Virus record (IMG/VR): IMGVR_UViG_3300033153_006232
Coordinates: 1-23,556 of that record
Origin: a virus
Reading direction: 5' to 3' (one strand)
DNA: 23,556 bases
In this document: in pieces, positions 2,647 through 20,826 of the stretch
How the letters are laid out: every line of letters begins with the position of its first letter
Position numbering within the stretch: position 1 is the stretch's first letter
The notes under the pieces: model-generated
Told to the model about the DNA's origin: nothing
The model's database searches: none
What the model saw: the letters and a program-made list of their open reading frames with translations, nothing else
Translations under genes and position numbers: made by a program

Positions 2647-2751
2647 ATGAGTAGCTGGAAAAAAGATGATATAATTATTTTGATAATCGGTCTTATCACC
2701 CTTTGTCTTATTGGTCGTCTTATCTGCAAATATCTGACAGGGGGGCTATAA
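2647..2751 (+). CDS. 34-residue single-pass membrane peptide
   Basis: ATG at 2647 follows the LRR gene stop by one base and uses the SD inside that gene's tail (AAGGAG, about 9 bases upstream). The product starts MSSWKKDD and continues as a strongly hydrophobic span (residues 9-25, IIILIIGLITLCLIGRL), so an N-terminal cytoplasmic tail and one membrane helix are likely. Its TAA overlaps the next ATG (TAATG), a coupling junction that supports real translation. The role is unknown; small phage membrane peptides include superinfection-exclusion and lysis-control proteins, but nothing here selects among these. Confidence 0.55.
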   Translation: MSSWKKDDIIILIIGLITLCLIGRLICKYLTGGL

Positions 2752-3362
2752 TGAAAAAAATCAAAATCAAAACTGTTGATGGCAAGGTGATTGTTGAGTC
2801 AAAAGCTAAAGGTATGACAATAAAAGAATTAGCGGAAAAATATCGTGATGAATTAGCTTATGCCTATTTATCTTGTGCCGATTTATCTGGTTCTAATTTA
2901 TCTTGTGCCGATTTATCTAATTCTGATTTATCTTATGCCTGTTTAACTGGTTCTGATTTAACTGGTGTTGATTTATCAGGTTCTTTTTTATTTCAAACTG
3001 ATTTAGCTTATGCCTGTTTATCTGGTTCTAATTTAACTGGTGCTAATTTATCAGGTGCTAATTTATTTCAAGCTAATCTGTCTTTTACTAATCTGTCTTT
3101 TGCCAATTTGGATAATACCAAACTAACTGGGATCGAGGGATATTCGGATAGTCGGGAAATATTTCTTGAATTGTGCCGCCGGCAACTGATAGGAACTTTC
3201 AATTTGAAAGAGTTGGCGATAATAGGGCAATTGTCGCCACATCATCCTTGTTGGGATGAAATTAAAAGGAGATACGGCAAAACGGCTCTGTCTATTGCCA
3301 AAAAACTGGCCAAAGCAGGGTGGGATGAGTATTATAAAAAATACAAGGAGGTGTTAAAGTGA
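2751..3362 (+). CDS. pentapeptide-repeat protein, long copy
   Basis: The product has 203 residues. Residues 1-35 form an N-terminal segment (KTVDGKVIVESKAKGMTIKE), residues 36-125 about 18 pentapeptides of the A(D/N)LSG type (for example SGANL, TGVDL, SCADL), and residues 126-203 a helical C-terminal domain (EIFLELCRRQ, PCWDEIK.RYGKTALSIAKK, GWDEYYKKYKE). Pentapeptide repeats fold as a right-handed beta-helix; some family members (Qnr, MfpA) mimic DNA and bind gyrase, but this protein's partner cannot be read from sequence. The start at 2751 is chosen because it overlaps the upstream stop and matches the start of the paralogue at 5060. An upstream TTG at 2703 would read through the membrane peptide gene and is less likely. 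Confidence 0.85.
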   Translation: MKKIKIKTVDGKVIVESKAKGMTIKELAEKYRDELAYAYLSCADLSGSNLSCADLSNSDLSYACLTGSDLTGVDLSGSFLFQTDLAYACLSGSNLTGANLSGANLFQANLSFTNLSFANLDNTKLTGIEGYSDSREIFLELCRRQLIGTFNLKELAIIGQLSPHHPCWDEIKRRYGKTALSIAKKLAKAGWDEYYKKYKEVLK

Positions 3363-4568: not shown

Positions 4569-5063
4569 ATGTATCAAAACGAAAAGCCTGGAATGTTTCC
4601 GCCTGGAAGTATTGGGGCAAAAATCATCGGTATATTATTAGGTAGCGCATTGGGGTTTTTGATTATAATATTGATTTGTTCATGTTCAAAACAAGAAAAT
4701 CCATATGACAATATTGATTTACAGATGATTGCCCTGCATGATGAAATTATTTTGCGGGAGATACGGCAGACCAACAATATTCTGGACAGTGCCCGGATTA
4801 AATCATTTAAAATCAATGAAGATAAGACCGCCGATATAGTTTTTCATGATGACACTTCTGGCGTTGGCACACTGGGTATATTGATTTCCCGCAAAATGCC
4901 GCCCGATTCTGTTTTAATTATTCGGCGTAATGGTATTGCATGGGCATTCTGGTGTAAGCATTGGTTTGGCCATAAGTTAGATTTTAAAGATGTTGATAAA
5001 TGGATAATCAAAAATAAGATGTTGCGGAATAAATCCAAGAATGATATTGAGGAAATAAAATGA
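4569..5063 (+). CDS. membrane-anchored protein or lipoprotein, unknown function
   Basis: The product has 164 residues. A long hydrophobic stretch (residues 18-37, ending LIIILICSC) is followed by SKQENPYDN. The ICSC sequence is close to a lipobox (I at -3, S at -1, C at +1), so a lipoprotein is possible; otherwise it is a single-pass membrane protein with an exported domain. The remaining 125 residues are charged and mixed alpha/beta (FKINEDKTADIVFHDD, LIIRRNGIAWAFWCKHWFGH). I do not recognise the family. AAGGAA lies about 9 bases before the ATG. The stop overlaps the next pentapeptide gene start (ATGA). An envelope-exposed role is inferred from the anchor only. Confidence 0.65.
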   Translation: MYQNEKPGMFPPGSIGAKIIGILLGSALGFLIIILICSCSKQENPYDNIDLQMIALHDEIILREIRQTNNILDSARIKSFKINEDKTADIVFHDDTSGVGTLGILISRKMPPDSVLIIRRNGIAWAFWCKHWFGHKLDFKDVDKWIIKNKMLRNKSKNDIEEIK

Positions 5064-5602
5064 AAATCAAAACTGTCAATGGCAAAGTAATTGCCGAGTC
5101 AAAGGCTAAGGGTATGACGATAAAAGAATTAGCGGAAAAATATCGTGATAAATTAGCTTATGCCGATTTAACTGGTGCCGATTTATCTGGTATTGATTTA
5201 TTCCGTGCTAATTTATCAAATACTGATTTAGCTTATGCCGATTTATCTGATTCTGTTTTATCTTATGGCTGTTTATCTGGTTCTAATTTAATTGGTGCTA
5301 ATTTATCCGGTGCTAATTTATTTCAAGCTTACCTGTCTTTTGCCAGTTTAGATAATACTAAATTAACTGGAATTAAGGGATATTCGGAAATCTATGAAAT
5401 ATTTTTTGAACTGTGTCGTCGACAATCAACAAAAACCTTCACCTCAAAAGAATGGATGATAATAGGGCAACTGTCGCTACATCGTCCTTGTTGGGATGAA
5501 ATTAAAAAGAGATACGGCAAAACAGCTTTATCTATTGCCAAAAAACTGGCCAAAGCAGGCTGGGACGAGTATTACAAAAAATACAAGGAGATGTTGAAAT
5601 GA
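5060..5602 (+). CDS. pentapeptide-repeat protein, short copy
   Basis: This 180-residue paralogue of the protein at 2751 has the same N-terminal segment (KTVNGKVIAESKAKGMTIKE), about 14 pentapeptides (residues 33-102) and the same C-terminal domain (EIFFELCRRQ, PCWDEIKKRYGKTALSIAKK, GWDEYYKKYKE). It is 23 residues shorter: three at the N-terminus plus exactly 20, that is four pentapeptide units. The conserved C-terminal domain sits outside the repeats in both copies, so it is probably functional and not spacer. Start and stop both overlap neighbours by the ATGA motif. DNA mimicry or gyrase protection is known for some family members but is not shown here. Confidence 0.85.
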   Translation: MKIKTVNGKVIAESKAKGMTIKELAEKYRDKLAYADLTGADLSGIDLFRANLSNTDLAYADLSDSVLSYGCLSGSNLIGANLSGANLFQAYLSFASLDNTKLTGIKGYSEIYEIFFELCRRQSTKTFTSKEWMIIGQLSLHRPCWDEIKKRYGKTALSIAKKLAKAGWDEYYKKYKEMLK

Positions 5603-6000
5603 AAAAAGAGACGGCGGCCACGGCCGAGCGGTTATATCATCTTCTGTCGCAGGAACTGGGTGAGAAGTTTAATCCGGGGACAAAAATAACCGATGAGATA
5701 ATTAAGGCATCGAATTTTATAGAAAACGCCCTGTTTTCAAAAGACCGATTAAAATCTGATTATTTTGAAAAAAGATTAGGCTTGCCGGGGTGTCAAATAA
5801 GAAGGGCAATCGCCTATTTGCGGGATAATGGTGTTTTAATAGGTTCTGACAACGGCGGCTATTATTTTATCCGGTCGGCAGACGATTTCAGGGCGACTTA
5901 TAATCACTTGCTTTGCCGGGCAACAGCGATACTGTATCGGGCGAGGAACCTTGAAAAATCTTGGGCAAAAGAAAACCAGGGAGAGCTATGGAAAAAATAA
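5599..6000 (+). CDS. winged-helix-like DNA-binding protein, paralogue of 3856
   Basis: The product has 133 residues. The N-terminal half is helical and charged (TAERLYHLLSQELGEKFN). Residues 60-95 (FEKRLGLPGCQIRRAIAYLR, DNGVLIG, GGYYFIRS) look like a helix-turn-helix plus wing and match the corresponding segment of the protein at 3856. The C-terminal 40 residues are helical and basic. The start overlaps the upstream stop (ATGA) with AAGGAG 6 bases before it. The gene sits directly upstream of the resolvase gene, whose start lies inside its last codons. A role in replication or early transcription is inferred from fold and context. Confidence 0.65.
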   Translation: MKKETAATAERLYHLLSQELGEKFNPGTKITDEIIKASNFIENALFSKDRLKSDYFEKRLGLPGCQIRRAIAYLRDNGVLIGSDNGGYYFIRSADDFRATYNHLLCRATAILYRARNLEKSWAKENQGELWKK

Positions 6001-6386
6001 CTTTAAAAATCGAGGGCACTCCGATTGCCCAACCGAGACACAGACGGGCACAAAGCGGGCATTTTTATATCCCGGCGGCACATCCGATTCATAAGTGGAA
6101 AGAGCTTATCAGGTTAATAAGCCAAAGCGAAGTAAATGAGCCGACTGACGGGTATGTCCGTTTATCGCTTGAATTTATTTTACCAAGACCCAAGTCAATA
6201 CCTGACAGCCAATTATATTCCAAGCGGAAGCCTGACCTCGATAATTTAATCAAGGCCGTTCTGGATGCGCTTAACGGCGTTGTTTATGAAGATGACCGTC
6301 AGGTTTATCAGATTGAAGCGCACAAGATTTACGAAGATAAAATCAATACACCGGGACTGAAAATAAAACTGGCAACTACAAAATAG
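5988..6386 (+). CDS. rusA: RusA-type Holliday junction resolvase
   Basis: This 132-residue protein has the RusA hallmark KPDLDNLIKAVLDALNG at residues 81-97 followed by VVYEDDRQV (98-106). The aspartates D83, D85 and D103 correspond to the metal-binding acidic residues of the family, and K89 to its conserved lysine. The N-terminal TPIAQPRHRR also fits RusA (usually P.(P/S)K.R.R). RusA homodimers cut four-way junctions to resolve recombination and replication intermediates before packaging. The ATG at 5988 is chosen over an upstream ATG at 5961 because GGGAG lies about 5 bases before it and MEKITLKIEG is a normal family start. It overlaps the previous gene's end by 13 bases. Confidence 0.92.
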   Translation: MEKITLKIEGTPIAQPRHRRAQSGHFYIPAAHPIHKWKELIRLISQSEVNEPTDGYVRLSLEFILPRPKSIPDSQLYSKRKPDLDNLIKAVLDALNGVVYEDDRQVYQIEAHKIYEDKINTPGLKIKLATTK

Positions 6387-6395
6387 GAGGTATCA

Positions 6396-6626
6396 ATGGA
6401 CATTGACAAGGCTATTGCCAAAATGCTGTTAAAATCGCTCGGCCGGAAATTCAGCCATAAACAGCCGATAAAGGCCGTCAAGATGGAGTTTGATTTCACA
6501 ATTGACAACATCGCCGGACAAAATGGCGACTGGCTGATACAGGGAGCGGACGGCGATTTCAAGACGGTCAAGGCCGATAAGTTTAATAATCTTTACTGGC
6601 CTTACCGCAAACCGAGATCAAAGTAG
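6396..6626 (+). CDS. hypothetical protein, 76 residues
   Basis: A strong SD (AGGAGGT) 5-6 bases before the ATG and close packing behind the resolvase gene support translation. The protein starts with a helical segment (MDIDKAIAKMLLKSLGRKF) and continues with a probable beta-rich part (VKMEFDFTIDNIAG, GDWLIQGADGDF, LYWPYRKPRSK). It lacks membrane spans, signal peptide and known motifs. The family is not recognised. Confidence 0.65.
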   Translation: MDIDKAIAKMLLKSLGRKFSHKQPIKAVKMEFDFTIDNIAGQNGDWLIQGADGDFKTVKADKFNNLYWPYRKPRSK

Positions 6627-9207: not shown

Positions 9208-11367
9208 ATGCGCATATTTAATTACGAAATAACAAAATTGCCAAAAGCCAGGCCGCCAAAAGCAATCGCATCTGACGAGGGCAAAAAAGCTGTTTCCAGT
9301 GAAATAATTCAAAGGATAATTCGTATCGGCGGCCGTCCGGTAATATTCAACGCTACCGAATTTTCCGAAAGCAATGTCGACCTGACCAATGCCAATGTCG
9401 GATTGGCCGTTAAGATTATTGGCAATAATGTATCCACTTTGCCATTGATGGTGCGGCGCAAAGCGCGTGTCAATGGCAAGACAACTTGGGTCGATGAACC
9501 CGACCATGACGCTTTACAATTATTTAAAGAACCGAATCCGCATCATTCGCAATATGATATATTCACTCATATTGTCCAATCACTGGTCATTACCGGTAAG
9601 TCATATATAACCATGAATCCAATGTTCCAAAAGCCGCCGACCGAACTGCGCCCGCATCCATCATGGATGTTTAATATTAAATATGACAAGGCGACTGGCT
9701 GGCCGTCTGGATATATTTATGACCCTTATCAAAAGAAAATCAATTTCGAGTTAGAGGAAGTTTTATACACTCACTTTTATCATATGTCATCGCCGTTTGA
9801 AGGTGCCAATCCATTGTCAGCCATTATGGACGAGATTAAATCAAATTTCTATGCTATTAAATGGCATCAGGAATATTTTAAGAACAGTGCTTCACCCGAT
9901 GTCTTGTTCTTGAATAAAAGCCTCAAGGGAATGAGCCCGGAAGAAGAAGAAAAATTTCTAACATCATGGGCAAGACGGCATAAAGGATATAAAAAAGCTT
10001 TTAACGCCGGAATACTGCCATCCGGGTTTGATTTTAAACAACTGGATCAAAAGATAAAAGATTTGGTCATCGATACCATTATCACTTTGAACCGCGAACA
10101 GATTTTGGGGTTCCTGATGGTGCCGCCATCGGAAGCGGGGGTTTTGAAGGACGCATCATATGCCAACGCGATGATGCAGAAACGGTCATTCTGGGAAAAC
10201 AGCCTGATTCCGTTGGTCAAAATATATATGATGTCAATCAATCGGCAGGTAATCTGGCCTAATTGGTCAGATGAGTTTGAATTATATCAGGATATATCAG
10301 GTGTGGCGGCCTTGCAGGAAGATAAGGCGGTTACTTATAAGGCGATGCGCGATGGTGTTGAGGGGGGATTTCTGACTCCGAATGATGCTCGTCGCGGAGT
10401 TGGCCAGGAACCGATTGAAGATGAAAATGCCGATAAATTGAGAATTGCGCCGATGCCGGTTCCGAGTAACGCGGCTGACGGCGGGAAATCGTTATCGGTT
10501 AAATCGGCGGCCGATGACGACCCGCCCGATCCGCGTGTTATGCATTGGAAAGCCTTCGATGAAAAAACAATCAAATATGAATCATCGTTTGTTGAAATAA
10601 TTGAGAAGTTTTTTGAGGCGCAAAAGAAGCGGGTGCTGAATAATCTTTCCGGCGAAGCGACTGCTCGCGGCGCCTTCTTTAAGACATGGTTATTCAAGAT
10701 GAAACAGGAACCGCCCGAACTGAAACGTGGCGATTCACAGGAACTGCCGGATCATATTATCAAGTTTTTTAATATCCAATTAGAAGATGAAGCCCTGGAA
10801 GGATTGACCAAACAACCGATTACTGATGCGGTTGCTAAATCCGGGCAGGCATTTATTGCATCGCATAATTTGGATATATCGTTCAATCTTAAAAATCCAG
10901 ACGTATTGACTTCAATATCTCAACAAGTCAAACGAATCAAATATATTAATGACGATACATTTGTCAAATTGAAATCATTGCTTGATGACGCATATGATAA
11001 CGCTTGGACAATCAATCAACTGGAAAGCGGAATCAAAGATTTATATGACAAATGGATTGTTGGTGATTGGGACTATAAACTGAAATTACAATCACGCGCA
11101 CGGACAATTGCTCGAACCGAAATGGGTGCCGCCGTTAATGGCGGCGAATATTTTGGGCAATTACAGGCCGGCGTGACAAAACGGGAATGGTTAGCTACTG
11201 TTGATGGTAACACACGATTTGAACATGCGATTGCCGATGGTCAGAAAGTCGACATACAGGAATCGTTTACCGTAGGTGGTGAAAAATTGCGATACCCATC
11301 AGACCCTAATGGTTCGCCTGGCAATGTAATAAATTGCCGATGCACGGTGATTGAGTATTTCGATTAA
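9208..11367 (+). CDS. portal protein fused to Mu F/SPP1 gp7-like minor capsid domain
   Basis: In this 719-residue protein, residues 1-415 match an HK97-type portal: NANVGLAVKIIGNNVSTLPL (61-80), the ITGKSYI region (128-134), HMSSPFEGANPLSAI (192-206) and VPPSEAGVL (305-313). A disordered acidic linker (425-445) leads to a second domain ending in the head-morphogenesis signature: ARTEMGAAVNGG (635-646), W.A..DGNTR..H...DGQ (661-679), and PGNVINCRC (704-712). The portal forms the dodecameric DNA channel; the gp7/F domain protein is a minor head protein that associates with it. These are usually two genes, here one. No stop or frameshift lies at the junction. It follows TerL by 14 bases, as expected. 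Confidence 0.9.
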   Translation: MRIFNYEITKLPKARPPKAIASDEGKKAVSSEIIQRIIRIGGRPVIFNATEFSESNVDLTNANVGLAVKIIGNNVSTLPLMVRRKARVNGKTTWVDEPDHDALQLFKEPNPHHSQYDIFTHIVQSLVITGKSYITMNPMFQKPPTELRPHPSWMFNIKYDKATGWPSGYIYDPYQKKINFELEEVLYTHFYHMSSPFEGANPLSAIMDEIKSNFYAIKWHQEYFKNSASPDVLFLNKSLKGMSPEEEEKFLTSWARRHKGYKKAFNAGILPSGFDFKQLDQKIKDLVIDTIITLNREQILGFLMVPPSEAGVLKDASYANAMMQKRSFWENSLIPLVKIYMMSINRQVIWPNWSDEFELYQDISGVAALQEDKAVTYKAMRDGVEGGFLTPNDARRGVGQEPIEDENADKLRIAPMPVPSNAADGGKSLSVKSAADDDPPDPRVMHWKAFDEKTIKYESSFVEIIEKFFEAQKKRVLNNLSGEATARGAFFKTWLFKMKQEPPELKRGDSQELPDHIIKFFNIQLEDEALEGLTKQPITDAVAKSGQAFIASHNLDISFNLKNPDVLTSISQQVKRIKYINDDTFVKLKSLLDDAYDNAWTINQLESGIKDLYDKWIVGDWDYKLKLQSRARTIARTEMGAAVNGGEYFGQLQAGVTKREWLATVDGNTRFEHAIADGQKVDIQESFTVGGEKLRYPSDPNGSPGNVINCRCTVIEYFD

Positions 11368-11981: not shown

Positions 11982-11999
11982 CCCCCGCAGGTGATGACC

Positions 12000-14099
12000 A
12001 TGAAAAAACAGTTTAAACTTGAAGGTGATAAACAATTCCGGTTTGACGCATCCAAGGCGGCGGCACAGATTGACGGTTCGCTGATTATCGAAGGCTGGGT
12101 TTCAACGCCCGATCTTGACGATGGTATGGATATTGTCGAACCGACAGCATTCACCAAAGCGGTCATCGATGAATACATGCAGAAACCGATTGTCCTGTTC
12201 ATGCATCGGTATCACGACTTGCCGGTCGGCAAAACATTGGCCTTGCATGTCGTTCCCGATAAAGGTTTGTGGGCATCAATTCAATTGTTGCCGACCGAAT
12301 CGATGGGCAGAGACCTGATTCTGTTAGTCAAAGCTGGCGTGGTCAAATCGTTTTCATATTCATATCGTGTTAAAAAATTTACTGTCGATGAGGAAACGGG
12401 CATTCGCACGATACATGAATTTTCAAAGTTGTCGGAAATCACCGTTGCCAACCTGGGCATGGATTTCTACGCGACCTTTGAGGAAGCGGCCAAGGCTGGA
12501 GTTGAAATCAAGTCAAAAGAATTAATCGAATTAGCACGCGAAACGCTTGGCGATAAGTATAAGTCAATCGGCGTGCAGAAAGGAAATAATAAATTGAACG
12601 AAGAAGAAAAAAAGGCAATGCAGGAACAATTGGAAAAGACTCAAAATCAAGCTAATACTGCAACTGCCAAAATAAGCGAAGTCAAAAATGAGGTTGCCGA
12701 AGTTTCCAAGTTAATCATCGAAATGAAAGAAGCGCAGGAAAAAACGGATGCCGAGAAAACCGAATTTATGACAAAGATGCTGAGCGATTTCACCACATCG
12801 CATCAAGCATTGACCGAAGCGATTCAAAAGGTTTCCACATCCAAAACGATGTTTGGATCGGAAACCGAGGAATGTCCGTTTGATATTAAGTCTTTAATGT
12901 CAAAACCGACTGTCCGATTGAAACGAGTTTTCAGTGAAAGCAAGTTTGCGCAAATTGAGGATGTCAGACGACAAAATGATATGGTTTTGATGATTGATGC
13001 CATCAAATGTGCCGCCGATGAAAACTATCGGTCAAATCGCAAAGAAGACCGTATCGCTAATCTTGATTCATATAAGGAATTAAAGATAATGGCGAAAAGT
13101 GCGGGTGTTAATATGAAAGCAATGGACACCTCAACTTCCGATGAAGGTTCGCAATTTTTGCCGGTTGGCTATTCAGCCAGAATGCATGAGATGGTGCGTG
13201 AGGAATTGGCCGTTGTCAATATGCATCCCTCATTCCCGATGATTGCCGCATCACAGGTCGACCCGGTCGAAGGTTCTGATACTATTGCAACCCGCGCAAC
13301 CCAGAAGACAACGGTTGTAAGCGCCTTCAATACGACCGAGCAAACGCCCGGTTCGGCGAATAAAACTTTCACCGCAGAAAAGTTGCGTGGCCGCACGCAG
13401 TTCAGTGGTGAAGCCGATGAGGATTTGATTATTAGCATATTTGATTATGTTGAACGGAAGGTCGCCCGGTCGATTGCACGCGCTCTTGAGTATGCCTTCA
13501 TTTCCGGTGATGATGCCGGTGCAACCGGACTTGATTCCGGGGATACCCCTGGCTCGACTGATGCCCGATATTGTTGGGATGGTTTCAGGGTTGCCACACA
13601 ATCAGGAAACAAAGTTGATCTGTCAACATTTTCAGAAAAGAATTTGAATCTGTTAAGATCAAAAGGCGGCAAATACTTCAAATCACCGGATCAATTTTAC
13701 TGGTTGACCTCATTGGTGGTTTATTTGCTTCATTTCCTTGATCCTGATGAAATGCCATCGGTTCATACGATTGACAAGTATGGCGCGCAGGCAACGGTAG
13801 TGACCGGTGAATTAGGCAAGTATGGCGCATCACCGATTCTCACTTCGGAATTTGTGCTGAATACATATGACGCGACCGGTGTTTATTCCGGTGCGGGTCA
13901 GACCCGGTCAATCGTTCAGGCCGTTAACCGTGAGGCCTTTAAGCTGGGTGTCTGGAAAACGGTTTCAATCGAAGTCATTCGCAACGCCCTTGATGATGTT
14001 TATGACATTGTTGGCTGGTGGCGCGGTGATATGAAGTGCATCTATGACGAAACTGCCGAAGATGTTACCGCAACCGGTTACGGCGTAACGACAACTTAA
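12000..14099 (+). CDS. prohead protease-scaffold-major capsid protein fusion
   Basis: The product has 699 residues in three parts. Residues 1-165 are an HK97-family prohead protease: LIIEGWVSTPDLDDGMDIVE (28-47), HRYHDLPVGK with the likely catalytic histidine H69, and KSFSYSYRV with the likely serine S119, then the EI.V....D.YA strand. Residues 195-277 are a charged coiled coil like a scaffold or delta domain. From about 370 onward is an HK97-fold capsid (SDEGSQFLPVGYSARM, FSGEADEDLI, VERKVARSIARALEYAFISG, FKLGVW). The protease would mature the shell by removing the scaffold and itself. The ATG at 12000 is chosen because AGGTGA (11989-11994) is spaced 5 bases before it; GTG 11991 and ATG 11994 are upstream alternatives. 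No internal start with a strong SD was seen at the domain borders. Confidence 0.88.
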   Translation: MKKQFKLEGDKQFRFDASKAAAQIDGSLIIEGWVSTPDLDDGMDIVEPTAFTKAVIDEYMQKPIVLFMHRYHDLPVGKTLALHVVPDKGLWASIQLLPTESMGRDLILLVKAGVVKSFSYSYRVKKFTVDEETGIRTIHEFSKLSEITVANLGMDFYATFEEAAKAGVEIKSKELIELARETLGDKYKSIGVQKGNNKLNEEEKKAMQEQLEKTQNQANTATAKISEVKNEVAEVSKLIIEMKEAQEKTDAEKTEFMTKMLSDFTTSHQALTEAIQKVSTSKTMFGSETEECPFDIKSLMSKPTVRLKRVFSESKFAQIEDVRRQNDMVLMIDAIKCAADENYRSNRKEDRIANLDSYKELKIMAKSAGVNMKAMDTSTSDEGSQFLPVGYSARMHEMVREELAVVNMHPSFPMIAASQVDPVEGSDTIATRATQKTTVVSAFNTTEQTPGSANKTFTAEKLRGRTQFSGEADEDLIISIFDYVERKVARSIARALEYAFISGDDAGATGLDSGDTPGSTDARYCWDGFRVATQSGNKVDLSTFSEKNLNLLRSKGGKYFKSPDQFYWLTSLVVYLLHFLDPDEMPSVHTIDKYGAQATVVTGELGKYGASPILTSEFVLNTYDATGVYSGAGQTRSIVQAVNREAFKLGVWKTVSIEVIRNALDDVYDIVGWWRGDMKCIYDETAEDVTATGYGVTTT

Positions 14100-16466: not shown

Positions 16467-16685
16467 ATGAAAATCAAATTGAAAAAAGGAAAGGTTTTGC
16501 CGCGTTTGATATGTATTCCCGGTCTTGATAAAGAACAATACCGATCATTACAGGCGGGTAAGATTGTTGATGTCAGCGCGGGCAAGGAAACCAAATTGCT
16601 TGATGGCGGATATTGTGAGGTAGTAACCAAAGTAACCGCCGCAAAGAAAGGAAGTGTCAATCATGGCGATGACAGTACTGACTAA
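16467..16685 (+). CDS. small hypothetical protein before the major tail gene
   Basis: The protein has 72 residues: basic N-terminus (MKIKLKKGKVLPRL), then QAGKIVDVSAGKETKLLDGG, then a charged tail. The layout resembles the protein at 14169, so the two may be distant paralogues. The role is unknown. The 3' end overlaps the major tail gene by 23 bases, suggesting coupled translation. Confidence 0.6.
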   Translation: MKIKLKKGKVLPRLICIPGLDKEQYRSLQAGKIVDVSAGKETKLLDGGYCEVVTKVTAAKKGSVNHGDDSTD

Positions 16686-17676
16686 AGAAGATTGCAAGGT
16701 GATATTGGTTGAACAGGCCACATGGGGAACCGCCGGGCTGGACAATGATGCCGGAATAATTCTGGACATCGAAACCATTGCAATCGATTTTGATGATAAG
16801 GTTGTGGAATCGGCACCGGCTCTGGCAACCCGCGTAGACGATGAGCGTGGATATTATACACATCAAAAAGCGGTCATGCCGAAATTTGAAATATCAGGCA
16901 TCGTTCATAATGATTCAATTGCTCGTTTTATTTATGGGTTCTGCCAGTTCGTTAATGAAGCGGCTACCACACCATACGGTAAGACGAATGTTGTTCATCC
17001 GACGCAACCGGATTTCACCGCCGATGAAGGATATTTCTTCACGCTGATAGTTGACCAGTCGGTATCATCAGTCTGCCATAAAGTTGCGGACTGTATTGTA
17101 ACCGAACTGGAATTTGATCAGCAACCGGGCGAGCCAATGACCTTTAAGGCCTCATGCGTCGGGCGCGGTGCGGTGGCGACAGATTCCGACCCATCGGGAT
17201 CATATAGTTATCCAGTCCAATCGTTTTATTTTGGTGAAGATCAGAGTGTGCATACCATCGATTTCGGTGGCGGTGCCTTAACGCCGGTCAATACCGGCGG
17301 CTTCAATATCAAATTAAGCCAGACCGCCGAACCTATCGGTATGGACGGTTCGGGTAATTTTGAATCGTTTGCGTTAAGCAAAAAAACCGGCACTTATACC
17401 GAAAAGGCGTTATTTGATTCGACTTCAAGAACTGCTTTTGCCAATCGCGCATCCAATACAGCGGTCGATATTGTTTGTCGGTGGGGAAATGCCGTGCCCG
17501 GCACTGATGATTTGGATTTGAGCTTTGCCTTACATGGAAAAATCACGCCGGCGACTATTCAAAATGTTGATGATTTGCTTGGTGTTGATATTGAAGTTAA
17601 ACTGGTTGGCGATATTGAAAGCGCAACCAAGATAGCAACTATTACTATTGCCGATGATGTTGATATGACATGGTAA
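16663..17676 (+). CDS. major tail protein (tail tube)
   Basis: The 337-residue protein is beta-rich, with hallmarks of phage tail-tube proteins: an N-terminal ATWGTAGL segment, an early strand pair (HQKAVMPKFEISGIVHNDSI), central VADCIVTELEFDQQPGEPMT and KASCVGRG, and paired strands in the second half (GGFNIKLSQTAEP, FALHGKITPATIQ). It forms stacked rings around the tape measure. ATG 16663 is chosen because AAAGGAAG lies 8 bases before it; GTG 16654 is too close to that SD. Position between terminators and chaperones fits. The length allows an extra C-terminal domain beyond the minimal tube fold. Confidence 0.75.
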   Translation: MAMTVLTKEDCKVILVEQATWGTAGLDNDAGIILDIETIAIDFDDKVVESAPALATRVDDERGYYTHQKAVMPKFEISGIVHNDSIARFIYGFCQFVNEAATTPYGKTNVVHPTQPDFTADEGYFFTLIVDQSVSSVCHKVADCIVTELEFDQQPGEPMTFKASCVGRGAVATDSDPSGSYSYPVQSFYFGEDQSVHTIDFGGGALTPVNTGGFNIKLSQTAEPIGMDGSGNFESFALSKKTGTYTEKALFDSTSRTAFANRASNTAVDIVCRWGNAVPGTDDLDLSFALHGKITPATIQNVDDLLGVDIEVKLVGDIESATKIATITIADDVDMTW

Positions 17677-17692
17677 TTGAAAGGAAATAAAA

Positions 17693-18013
17693 ATGCCGAT
17701 ACGTTTTATTAATCGCGATGAAATATTTGATATTGATGTCAATGGTTCAATCGTCAAAGTTAAACAGATGTGGCCTCAAAGTGATTTATTTTTATTGAAT
17801 AAGCATCGCATGAAACTTGCGACTGATGGTAGAAAAGAAGATTTGGACGCAATCTTTGCTATTCTCAAGAAATTCATCGTCGAATTTACAACCGCACCGG
17901 ACGGATGGAATGTTGATTTATGTCTTGAAAATATAAGTGGGAACGATCTTGCTAAATTAATGGATATGATGGTAAGCAAATCCGCATTTGATAAGGATGA
18001 GGAAAAAAACTAA
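17693..18013 (+). CDS. tail assembly chaperone, short form (gpG-like)
   Basis: The 106-residue protein has a mixed start (IRFINRDEIFDIDVNGSIVK) and mostly helical rest (FLLNKHRMKL, LDAIFAILKKFIVEF, LAKLMDMMVSKSAF), typical of the N-terminal chaperone domain that binds the tape measure. It lies between the major tail protein and the tape measure, the canonical place. Its last codons are GAA AAA AAC TAA, which contain a slippery A AAA AAC, so a share of ribosomes should move to the -1 frame and make the longer form. AAAGGAA 8 bases upstream is the SD. Confidence 0.82.
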   Translation: MPIRFINRDEIFDIDVNGSIVKVKQMWPQSDLFLLNKHRMKLATDGRKEDLDAIFAILKKFIVEFTTAPDGWNVDLCLENISGNDLAKLMDMMVSKSAFDKDEEKN

Positions 18014-18435
18014 TATTGCTCGTGCAGTTTAATTTATGGATAAAGAAAAAAGAAAAATATAATTGCGCGAGCTGTCAGGGTAAGATGCATAGGTGTTTGA
18101 TGCAGAAAAATGAAGTCGAAATTAAGGCGGTCAATTTGCCGAAGATGAAGATTAACAAAGATAATTGGCGAACGGCCGTTGATGCGTTCCGCGATAAAAT
18201 TGATAATCCGAATTATCCGGCCATCGGCGCATTGCAAAATTATAACCTTTGCCCGATTCCATTGTTCACTGAGTTATCAATTGAAACATGGAATTTATAT
18301 AACGCCATCGGCGGTATCGGAAAAGTAAACAGCCCGCAGGAATATTATAATTTGCAAGCATTTTATGTTGATGGCGTTCGTATCATTGAAAGTGCAATTG
18401 CAGATATTCAACCATATTTGAAAGAATCTTCATAA
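17693..18435 (+). CDS. tail assembly chaperone, -1 frameshift product (gpGT-like)
   Basis: Ribosomes that slip at 18004-18010 read CTA ATA TTG instead of TAA and continue to the TAA at 18433-18435, giving a predicted 247-residue fusion: 106 chaperone residues plus 141 from the -1 frame. The extension (open from 18010) has no convincing start of its own: the first candidate is a TTG at 18016 without SD. It carries a cysteine cluster CASCQGKMHRC, and a globular helical part (NWRTAVDAFRDKI, LFTELSIETWNLYNAIGG). In lambda and many siphoviruses the G:GT ratio set by frameshifting is required for tail assembly. The extension's stop overlaps the tape measure start (TAATG). Confidence 0.8.
18004..18010 (+). 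promoter_or_regulatory. -1 ribosomal frameshift slippery heptamer A AAA AAC
   Basis: In the chaperone frame the codons are GAA AAA AAC TAA; A AAA AAC fits X XXY YYZ exactly. After slippage, both tRNAs re-pair on AAA AAA, and the following -1 frame is open for 141 codons. The zero-frame stop is immediately 3' of the heptamer. Confidence 0.85.
18018..18072 (+). promoter_or_regulatory. frameshift-stimulating stem-loop
   Basis: GCTCGTGCAGTT (18018-18029) can pair with AATTGCGCGAGC (18061-18072): 12 pairs including two G-U, with a 31-base A-rich loop. The stem begins 7 bases after the slippery site, within the spacing known for -1 frameshift stimulators. Confidence 0.65.
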
Positions 18436-20033
18436 TGGGCACAGTCAATGAAAATATTCGGGCGAGGGTTTCGTTAGTCGACAATGCGACACCAAAACTG
18501 GCTAAAATAACCGCCGCCATCGGTGGTGCAGCATTAGCCTGGAAAGCATGGGATATTGGCCGAGATATTGTCAAAGCATCGATCGAGGAATTTTCCAATT
18601 ATGAATCGAGCATGGTTGGAATTAAATCATTAGTCGAAACCACCGGGCGCAGTTATGCAAAAACATTAGAAGCGATGACAAATCAAATGGGTGGGTTGGC
18701 ATCACAGGCGGCTATTGCCGAAACGTTCTTGAAGGGATTAACAACCGAATTAAATGTTGACCAGATAAATGAATTGACAACGGCGGTGCGCAACGCATCA
18801 ATCGCAATGGGTGAAGATTTTAACGTGCAATTACCATTAATTATTAAGGCGGTCAAACAATTAAATCCGGCAATTCTTGATAACATCGGTGTTACAGTTC
18901 GCTTGGATCGTGTCAATAAAAAAATCACCGAAGGTTATTATGGTATGAGCCGCGAGATAAATGAGGCCACACAGCAAAATGCTATATTTCAGGAAATAAT
19001 AAAACAGACGGCAAAATTTCAGGGAATGGAAGCGACTGCACTTGATACAACAAAAGGCAAAATGCAATTATTATCTGCGCAAACATCCGATTTATATAAA
19101 ATATTGGGTGAAGCTTTTAATCCCGAAGTGCAAAAGACAATTGATCTTATGAATGATCTGGCCGCCGGCATGATTAAATCCGCAACTGCTGCCGCTGCAA
19201 TGACTGATAAATCATTCATCGAGAGATATGCGGCATTTCTTTCCGGTATTGCAGAATCATTGGGATTGTTATCCGAACAAGGCAAATTGGGTTTGAATCT
19301 TATGGGGATATATGCCGAATGGAAAGCGAAACAAGATGCATTAAATGAATCGACGGAAAAAGGAAATGAAACAGCGGCCGCATCAACTGAAAAATGGCGT
19401 GAATATATCTCAACGTTATCCGAAGCGAATCAGGCTATATTTTGGTCTGATATGTGGAAACAGATATTTGAACGTCAACCGGCGATATTGCAATCGATGC
19501 ATGATGATTATGTTGCATTATTGGATGAGGAAGAAAATCAAACCGATGAAACTGCTGAATATGTCGCAGAACGATGGATGGATGTATCACAAAAAAAAAT
19601 ACGGGCATTGATCGAAGCCGCCGAAGCACAAAAAAGATTACAGGTTGATATGATGGGTGTGATGAATAATACAATGATGGGGTTCAGTCGGAATATTGTC
19701 AAATCGATGAAATTTCTGCATACCGAATCGACCGGAGTTTTCAAGAACATGGCCGTTGATTTCAGCCGGTATTTTATCGAGGAAGTCCTGCGAAAAATGA
19801 CAATGTTCTTGGTTCCTAAAATGCTTGGCATCCTGGGGTCGATTTTTGATACCCGCGCCAATGATATGATGGCGATGCGGCAGGGTGCGGATTTTGGCCG
19901 CTTCTTTAAGGATGGCGTTATAGCCGAAGTCAACCCGGATTCGATGGCGGCCATATTTGCCGATGCAACCGAATTCGACAGTGAAATCCAAAGACAAAAT
20001 ATGACAGGCGGTTCTAATGTCGCAATCTATTAA
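18435..20033 (+). CDS. tape measure protein
   Basis: The 532-residue, mainly helical protein has the usual N-terminal form (VNENIRARVSLVDNATPKLA) followed by a hydrophobic Ala/Gly-rich segment (KITAAIGGAALAWKAWDIG), then long helical stretches (EEFSNYESSMVGIKSLVE, EMTNQ-type repeats, AEAQKRLQVDMMGVM) and a second hydrophobic patch (MTMFLVPKMLGILGSIFD). Tape measures set tail length at roughly 1.5 angstroms per residue, so this short one would imply a tail near 80 nm if the rule holds. The ATG overlaps the chaperone stop. Its 3' end overlaps the next gene by 17 bases. Confidence 0.85.
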   Translation: MGTVNENIRARVSLVDNATPKLAKITAAIGGAALAWKAWDIGRDIVKASIEEFSNYESSMVGIKSLVETTGRSYAKTLEAMTNQMGGLASQAAIAETFLKGLTTELNVDQINELTTAVRNASIAMGEDFNVQLPLIIKAVKQLNPAILDNIGVTVRLDRVNKKITEGYYGMSREINEATQQNAIFQEIIKQTAKFQGMEATALDTTKGKMQLLSAQTSDLYKILGEAFNPEVQKTIDLMNDLAAGMIKSATAAAAMTDKSFIERYAAFLSGIAESLGLLSEQGKLGLNLMGIYAEWKAKQDALNESTEKGNETAAASTEKWREYISTLSEANQAIFWSDMWKQIFERQPAILQSMHDDYVALLDEEENQTDETAEYVAERWMDVSQKKIRALIEAAEAQKRLQVDMMGVMNNTMMGFSRNIVKSMKFLHTESTGVFKNMAVDFSRYFIEEVLRKMTMFLVPKMLGILGSIFDTRANDMMAMRQGADFGRFFKDGVIAEVNPDSMAAIFADATEFDSEIQRQNMTGGSNVAIY

Positions 20034-20826
20034 ATTATATACGATGAAGCCGATGATAGAAGCGGTTTGTGATAGTGCAACTACCGAAGCCACAGGACAT
20101 CAAAAAGAATTCTTATTGGACGGTAATCCCGATACATATTGGAAACCGTCAACGGCGACGACACAAGTGATTGATTTAGATTTACAGAGTGCGCATATCA
20201 TCGATGCTGTTGGCTTTTGGATACATGATTATAATTTTAATCACGGCCCTGGCGAAACAAACGAATATTCATGTCTATTTGAATATTCGGATGACGATTC
20301 GAGTTATACACATGCGCATGCAACGACTTCTATTAACAACGAGCCAATGCCGTTATTTATTATCGATATAACACAGGTTTCTCATCGATATTGGCGATTG
20401 CATTTATATCCCCAAGCATCGCCGCCAGTTTCCGAATATATTGAATTATCATGGATATTTTTATTGCAGGAATATGATTTGGGGCAGGGCGATGAATATC
20501 CAATCGGTGATTCATGGACATATCACAATCGAATCATCAAAGGTGCGGGCGGGCGAACTTATTCCAAATTAATCAATAGCGCAATGCATAAGAAATATAA
20601 ACGTGCATTTATTTTTAATGACGCTGTAAAATATGCGAAATTGGTAACTGCTATTCAAGACAGTCAGGGCGGTAATTTGCCGATGATATTGAATCTTGAT
20701 GGTCTTAATGTAGATGCTGTCCGTTTTGTCGGTGAATTTAACGGCAACCAAATGGGTTATGATGATTATCGACCGGGCGTTGTTTTTGAATCAATCCCAT
20801 ATATACCGGACGGTGCTATATTATGA
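20017..20826 (+). CDS. distal tail protein with discoidin-like domain
   Basis: The protein has 269 residues. Residues 25-150 resemble an F5/8 type C (discoidin) beta-sandwich: FLLDGNPDTYWKPS, IDLDLQSAHIIDAVGFWIHD, then YWRLHLYP near residues 125-132. The remaining part (GAGGRTYSKLIN, FIFNDAVKYAKLVTAIQDSQ, GEFNGNQMGYDDYRPGVVFE) is like the last part of tail-tip proteins. F5/8C folds commonly bind sugars or lipids, so a host-surface contact at the tail tip is plausible. Gene order after the tape measure fits a distal tail (Dit-type) protein. No direct signature for Dit is visible, so that label is positional. Confidence 0.6.
   Translation: MSQSIKLYTMKPMIEAVCDSATTEATGHQKEFLLDGNPDTYWKPSTATTQVIDLDLQSAHIIDAVGFWIHDYNFNHGPGETNEYSCLFEYSDDDSSYTHAHATTSINNEPMPLFIIDITQVSHRYWRLHLYPQASPPVSEYIELSWIFLLQEYDLGQGDEYPIGDSWTYHNRIIKGAGGRTYSKLINSAMHKKYKRAFIFNDAVKYAKLVTAIQDSQGGNLPMILNLDGLNVDAVRFVGEFNGNQMGYDDYRPGVVFESIPYIPDGAIL

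Follow-up and report, generated by a model that had tools for sequence, protein, structure and literature searches.

How is a reading frame translated when it follows a tail gene in the -1 frame? This question is raised by two frames, G and T, of IMGVR_UViG_3300033153_006232, the complete contig of one uncultivated tailed phage. The whole 23,556-nt contig was analyzed and is called the window here. The preliminary description of this DNA proposed that the tail chaperone genes contain a cassette for -1 frameshifting.

Gene neighborhood of the locus

The window encodes a terminase, a portal protein with a Mu F-like domain (9208-11367), a protease-capsid protein, head-tail connectors, and a tail terminator. 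The protease and capsid are a single ORF (11991-14099), in which a prohead protease (Peptidase_S78) is fused to the capsid protein. After the tail terminator come the tail tube gene (16654-17676), G, T, the tape-measure gene (18435-20033), and more tail genes; tail tube through tape measure lie on the plus strand. The product of the major tail tube gene has a Pfam Phage_tube_2 match slightly under the cutoff (E 5e-6) and matches the tail protein family phrog_290 (E 4e-5). The tape-measure protein matches phrog_3779, tail length tape measure (E 1e-10). T is the -1 frame ORF after G; the pair is flanked by the genes for the major tail protein and the tape measure. The order tail tube, G, T, tape measure also occurs in L031 and other relatives described below, and it is the order of phage lambda.

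Right behind the tape-measure gene, 20017-20826 encodes a protein with a discoidin-like (F5/8 type C) domain, and L031 has a similar-looking ORF at the equivalent position (5737-6522). Elsewhere in the window, an adjacent and probably paralogous ORF pair (604-2645) carries short leucine-rich-like repeats (LxxLPELPKCxxLxCxxN); the longer ORF, of 446 aa, is highly repetitive. The similar proteins of a second pair (2703-3362 and 5060-5602) share a C-terminal region, and both have pentapeptide-like repeats (A[DN]L[ST]x).

The heptamer and the two reading frames

G (17693-18013) encodes a 106-aa putative tail assembly chaperone and is preceded by a Shine-Dalgarno (SD)-like AAAGGA at 17680-17685. 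Across its end the G frame reads GAG GAA AAA AAC TAA. This places a slippery heptamer, A_AAA_AAC (18004-18010), in phase with G, and the zero-frame stop TAA (18011-18013) adjoins it, both as first described. The T domain occupies the -1 frame (18010-18435), which is open for 141 codons past the heptamer, the length originally reported; G and T together would make a 247-aa GT fusion. The -1 frame ends at a TAA (18433-18435) that overlaps the tape-measure ATG.

A TGA at 17998-18000 closes the -1 frame upstream, which limits the stretch where the zero and -1 frames are both open to 18001-18013, and the heptamer is the sole slippery site within this overlap. A-rich heptamers are common in the window, where AAAAAAC/G occurs 37 times on both strands. 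This abundance favors a reading in which G and T are two ordinary neighboring genes, or the product of a frame error in the contig, with motifs present by chance. Among the 21 in-phase heptamers in the main genes of the window, the one at 18004-18010 is the only one followed by more than 28 open -1 codons.

The -1 frame was also said to have no start codon of its own. This is wrong: TTG at 18016, GTG at 18022, ATG at 18085, and others lie in frame. T might then be a separate protein made by termination at the TAA at 18011 and reinitiation at TTG 18016 or GTG 18022, which begin 2 and 8 nt past the stop. TTG and GTG are, however, weak starts, and the nearest SD-like sequence, GAGGA, is 12 nt ahead of the TTG. 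In this genome, reinitiation is a formal though improbable alternative.

The downstream stem-loop

The heptamer is followed by a 7-nt spacer (18011-18017, sequence including the stop) and a presumed stimulatory stem. Its 5' arm, GCTCGTGCAGTT (18018-18029), pairs with the 3' arm, AATTGCGCGAGC (18061-18072), which also codes for the N-C-A-S of the cysteine motif of T. Spacer and stem agree with the preliminary description, with the addition that two of the 12 pairs are G·U. An X_XXY_YYZ heptamer, a short spacer (about 5-9 nt), and a stable stem are the elements by which a -1 signal is recognized, and the junction has all three.

The 72 nt that follow the heptamer were dinucleotide-shuffled 500 times. 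The minimum free energy (MFE) of the native sequence was matched in 0.6% of the shuffles, and none of the 500 gave a stem of equal length at the same spacing. When the -1 frame was recoded synonymously, keeping the protein, the stem length was matched in 1.6% of trials. The raw MFE of the site is in the lowest 14% of the window and is not extreme by itself. Since plain stability is unremarkable, the case was built on position and conservation. An Rfam search gave nothing useful.

Conservation in related phage contigs

Eleven other distinct contigs of uncultivated phages were collected through the tape measure, the downstream tail gene, or a DNA pattern. Seven of them (L002, L004, L005, L011, L012, L044, and L047) were found via the tape measure or the downstream tail gene, with no use of the heptamer. 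The remaining four (L019, L022, L025, and L031) were fetched by a pattern that included the heptamer together with some of the 5' arm and are, therefore, not independent evidence for either. Neither G nor T, used as the only query protein, retrieved a relative from viral contigs or isolate phages, and the T alignment was too divergent for use as a scan query. The tape measure had no match in bacterial and archaeal genomes, and the downstream tail gene gave no useful match among isolate phages. All ten matches of the cassette pattern in genomes, and five in viral sequences, were rejected as chance matches with the ORFs missing.

An in-phase heptamer lies at the G/T junction of all 12 loci, the window included. 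It is A_AAA_AAC in 11 of these (the window and ten relatives) and G_GGA_AAC, in the same phase, in L004. This distribution bears on transcriptional slippage, in which RNA polymerase would produce frame-changed mRNAs on the A run (seven A's in the window, 18003-18009). An A-rich run is indeed present at the junction of 11 of the 12 loci, but it consists of just six or seven A's in the loci inspected. The GGGAAAC of L004 has only three A's at the same place, which argues against transcriptional slippage as a shared mechanism. RNA polymerase, moreover, needs no stem conserved at a ribosomal spacing. We consider transcriptional slippage extremely unlikely.

The stop abutting the heptamer is found in three loci: the window and L002 (TAA) and L012 (TGA). 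It is absent from the other nine; there, the zero frame runs on past the heptamer, often as a serine-rich tail; among the seven loci that were counted, this extension is 15-38 codons long.

The relatives also bear on reinitiation. L012 keeps both TTG and GTG at the codons where the window has them, and L002 keeps the GTG, as reinitiation would have it. Against this, six relatives (L004, L005, L011, L019, L031, and L044) have no ATG, GTG, or TTG in the first 40 codons of the T frame, so the conserved beginning of T cannot be translated independently from a standard start there. The argument from a missing start, which fails for the window, stands for these six, where frameshifting is the route that would work. 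The conserved KLxLLV of T starts at the heptamer, including in relatives without a start codon, and its KL residues precede any start. The heptamer, furthermore, is kept in phase at every locus. Reinitiation as the source of T is, in our estimation, very improbable.

In L047, a distant relative, A_AAA_AAC and GKKL are retained at the junction (2203-2529), followed by an unrelated T domain. This suggests that T domains may be swapped behind a fixed shift site.

Covariation of the stem

A stem begins 6-7 nt past the heptamer in 10 of the 12 loci (the window and nine relatives) and is bulged in L004. L044 and L047 keep the heptamer and have no stem at 7 nt. In nine of the ten loci, the length of the stem exceeds that seen in dinucleotide shuffles (p 0.006 or less).

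Covariation was examined in eight distinct aligned cassettes, with loops removed, over nine core pairs; the three loop-proximal pairs of the stem are not conserved. The core pairs are 100% paired across the eight cassettes, and both-sided changes occur at pairs 1, 7, 8, and 9. Shifting the register of the partners by 1-3 columns reduces pairing to 39-48%, and no shuffle reached the covariation score of the stem. Compensatory changes at four of nine core pairs maintain the stem. Independent both-sided events are few, because the changes mostly separate two clades. The 3' arm coincides with the cysteine-motif codons in the clade of the window and is located upstream of the motif in the other clade; pairing is therefore kept even though the encoded residues differ. 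When the window is compared with L002, residues that did not change use the same codon at 11 of 13 positions in the two arm regions vs 36 of 68 elsewhere in T, a difference that is no more than suggestive.

Conservation in 12 distinct contigs, the covariation, and the six relatives without start codons all speak against neighboring genes or a contig error with chance motifs, a reading to which we give next to no credence.

The G and T proteins

Members of the G family gave weak, single-member matches to tail assembly chaperones in PHROG (E 0.002-0.05). With Foldseek, the best named matches of the G model are also tail assembly chaperones (E 0.015-0.02). The window G protein matched no Pfam family and had no PDB match. 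G has no confident match to any known family and a weak likeness to tail chaperones.

T proteins of the core family align from the heptamer on and share LxLLV, three cysteines, and one tryptophan. In the window, the C-x2-C-x6-C codons span 18064-18096, with cysteine codons at 18064, 18073, and 18094. Judged from the T alignment, this is a possible metal site. The structure model of T is confident, with a pLDDT of 86; profile, PDB sequence, and structure searches with T gave no match. By analogy, G and T may function as tail assembly chaperones do, and the PHROG and fold matches of G lend weak support to this.

Comparison with known frameshift sites

The lambda heptamer is G_GGA_AAG, whereas that of the window is A_AAA_AAC. 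The window resembles lambda in that the pair lies between the tail tube and tape-measure genes, with a heptamer in phase close to where G ends and a -1 extension, T, that leads directly into the tape-measure gene. Unlike lambda, the clade of the window has a zero-frame stop right after the heptamer and a covarying stem 7 nt downstream, and its T belongs to a family that contains cysteines and for which no relationship to known T domains was detected. As summarized in PMC5009743, the -1 frameshift of lambda G/GT yields tail assembly chaperones (Levin 1993; Xu 2004, 2013), G and GT are made at about 30:1, G binds the tape measure, and T binds the tail subunit. The same source describes g-t frameshift sites in the haloarchaeal tailed viruses HCTV-1, HCTV-2, and HCTV-5. 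Two of these sites use G_GGA_AAC and A_AAA_AAC, both found here; the likeness noted is one between heptamers.

With E. coli dnaX, the junction shares a slippery A-rich heptamer, a short spacer, and a downstream stem-loop. dnaX, in contrast, has A_AAA_AAG and an upstream SD, and its shift truncates the product, whereas here the product would be extended. A dnaX-type SD stimulator, expected roughly 10 nt ahead of the heptamer, was also considered. Such an element varies across loci: anti-SD pairing upstream of the heptamer ranges from -0.2 to -8.4 kcal/mol, strong in some loci and absent in others.

Proposed mechanism

The heptamer, its phase, the stem, the gene order, the conservation, and the covariation are observed directly in the DNA. 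The heptamer at 12 of 12 loci, the stem at 10 of 12, the compensatory changes, and the gene order support the cassette first proposed. We conclude, with a probability of about 94%, that the junction is a programmed -1 ribosomal frameshift site yielding a lambda-type G/GT tail assembly chaperone pair. We infer both that slippage occurs and that it is infrequent. The majority of ribosomes would translate G and terminate at the TAA at 18011. A minority would move one base back on A_AAA_AAC while AAA occupies the P site, AAC the A site, and the stem stands at the mRNA entrance. Slipped ribosomes would read on as LILLVQFNLW... to produce the 247-aa GT fusion. If both tRNAs slip in tandem, the tryptic peptide across the junction would be NLILLVQFNLWIK. 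By analogy with lambda, we infer the binding partners: G would coat the tape-measure protein, and the T domain of GT would recruit the tail tube subunit.

The weaker heptamer counts against this mechanism; in E. coli, A_AAA_AAC is far less slippery than A_AAA_AAG (PMC5009743). The missing stem in L044 and L047 and the lack of a confident family match for G also count against it.

The stop that abuts the heptamer might itself be part of the signal, with termination competing with slippage so that the supply of release factor sets the G:GT ratio. We regard this as doubtful. In the phages used to train PRFect, the distance from slippery site to stop averages 26 nt (PMC10885494). A distance of zero is short by comparison, yet it is no new principle, and other systems are known in which a stop adjoins a recoding site (PMC5009743). 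If the stop did act in this way, tail-chaperone stoichiometry would be coupled to the termination rate of the host.

Significance

The G/GT kind of frameshift is already well known. New here are the group of phages, its family of T proteins, a stem that covaries, and, in three loci, the way heptamer and stop are arranged. The finding would extend the G/GT frameshift rule to a group of tailed phages without close isolate relatives for their tail genes, and with a T that matches no profile. The covarying stem, together with a stop that is present or absent behind the same heptamer, provides a natural set on termination vs -1 slippage.
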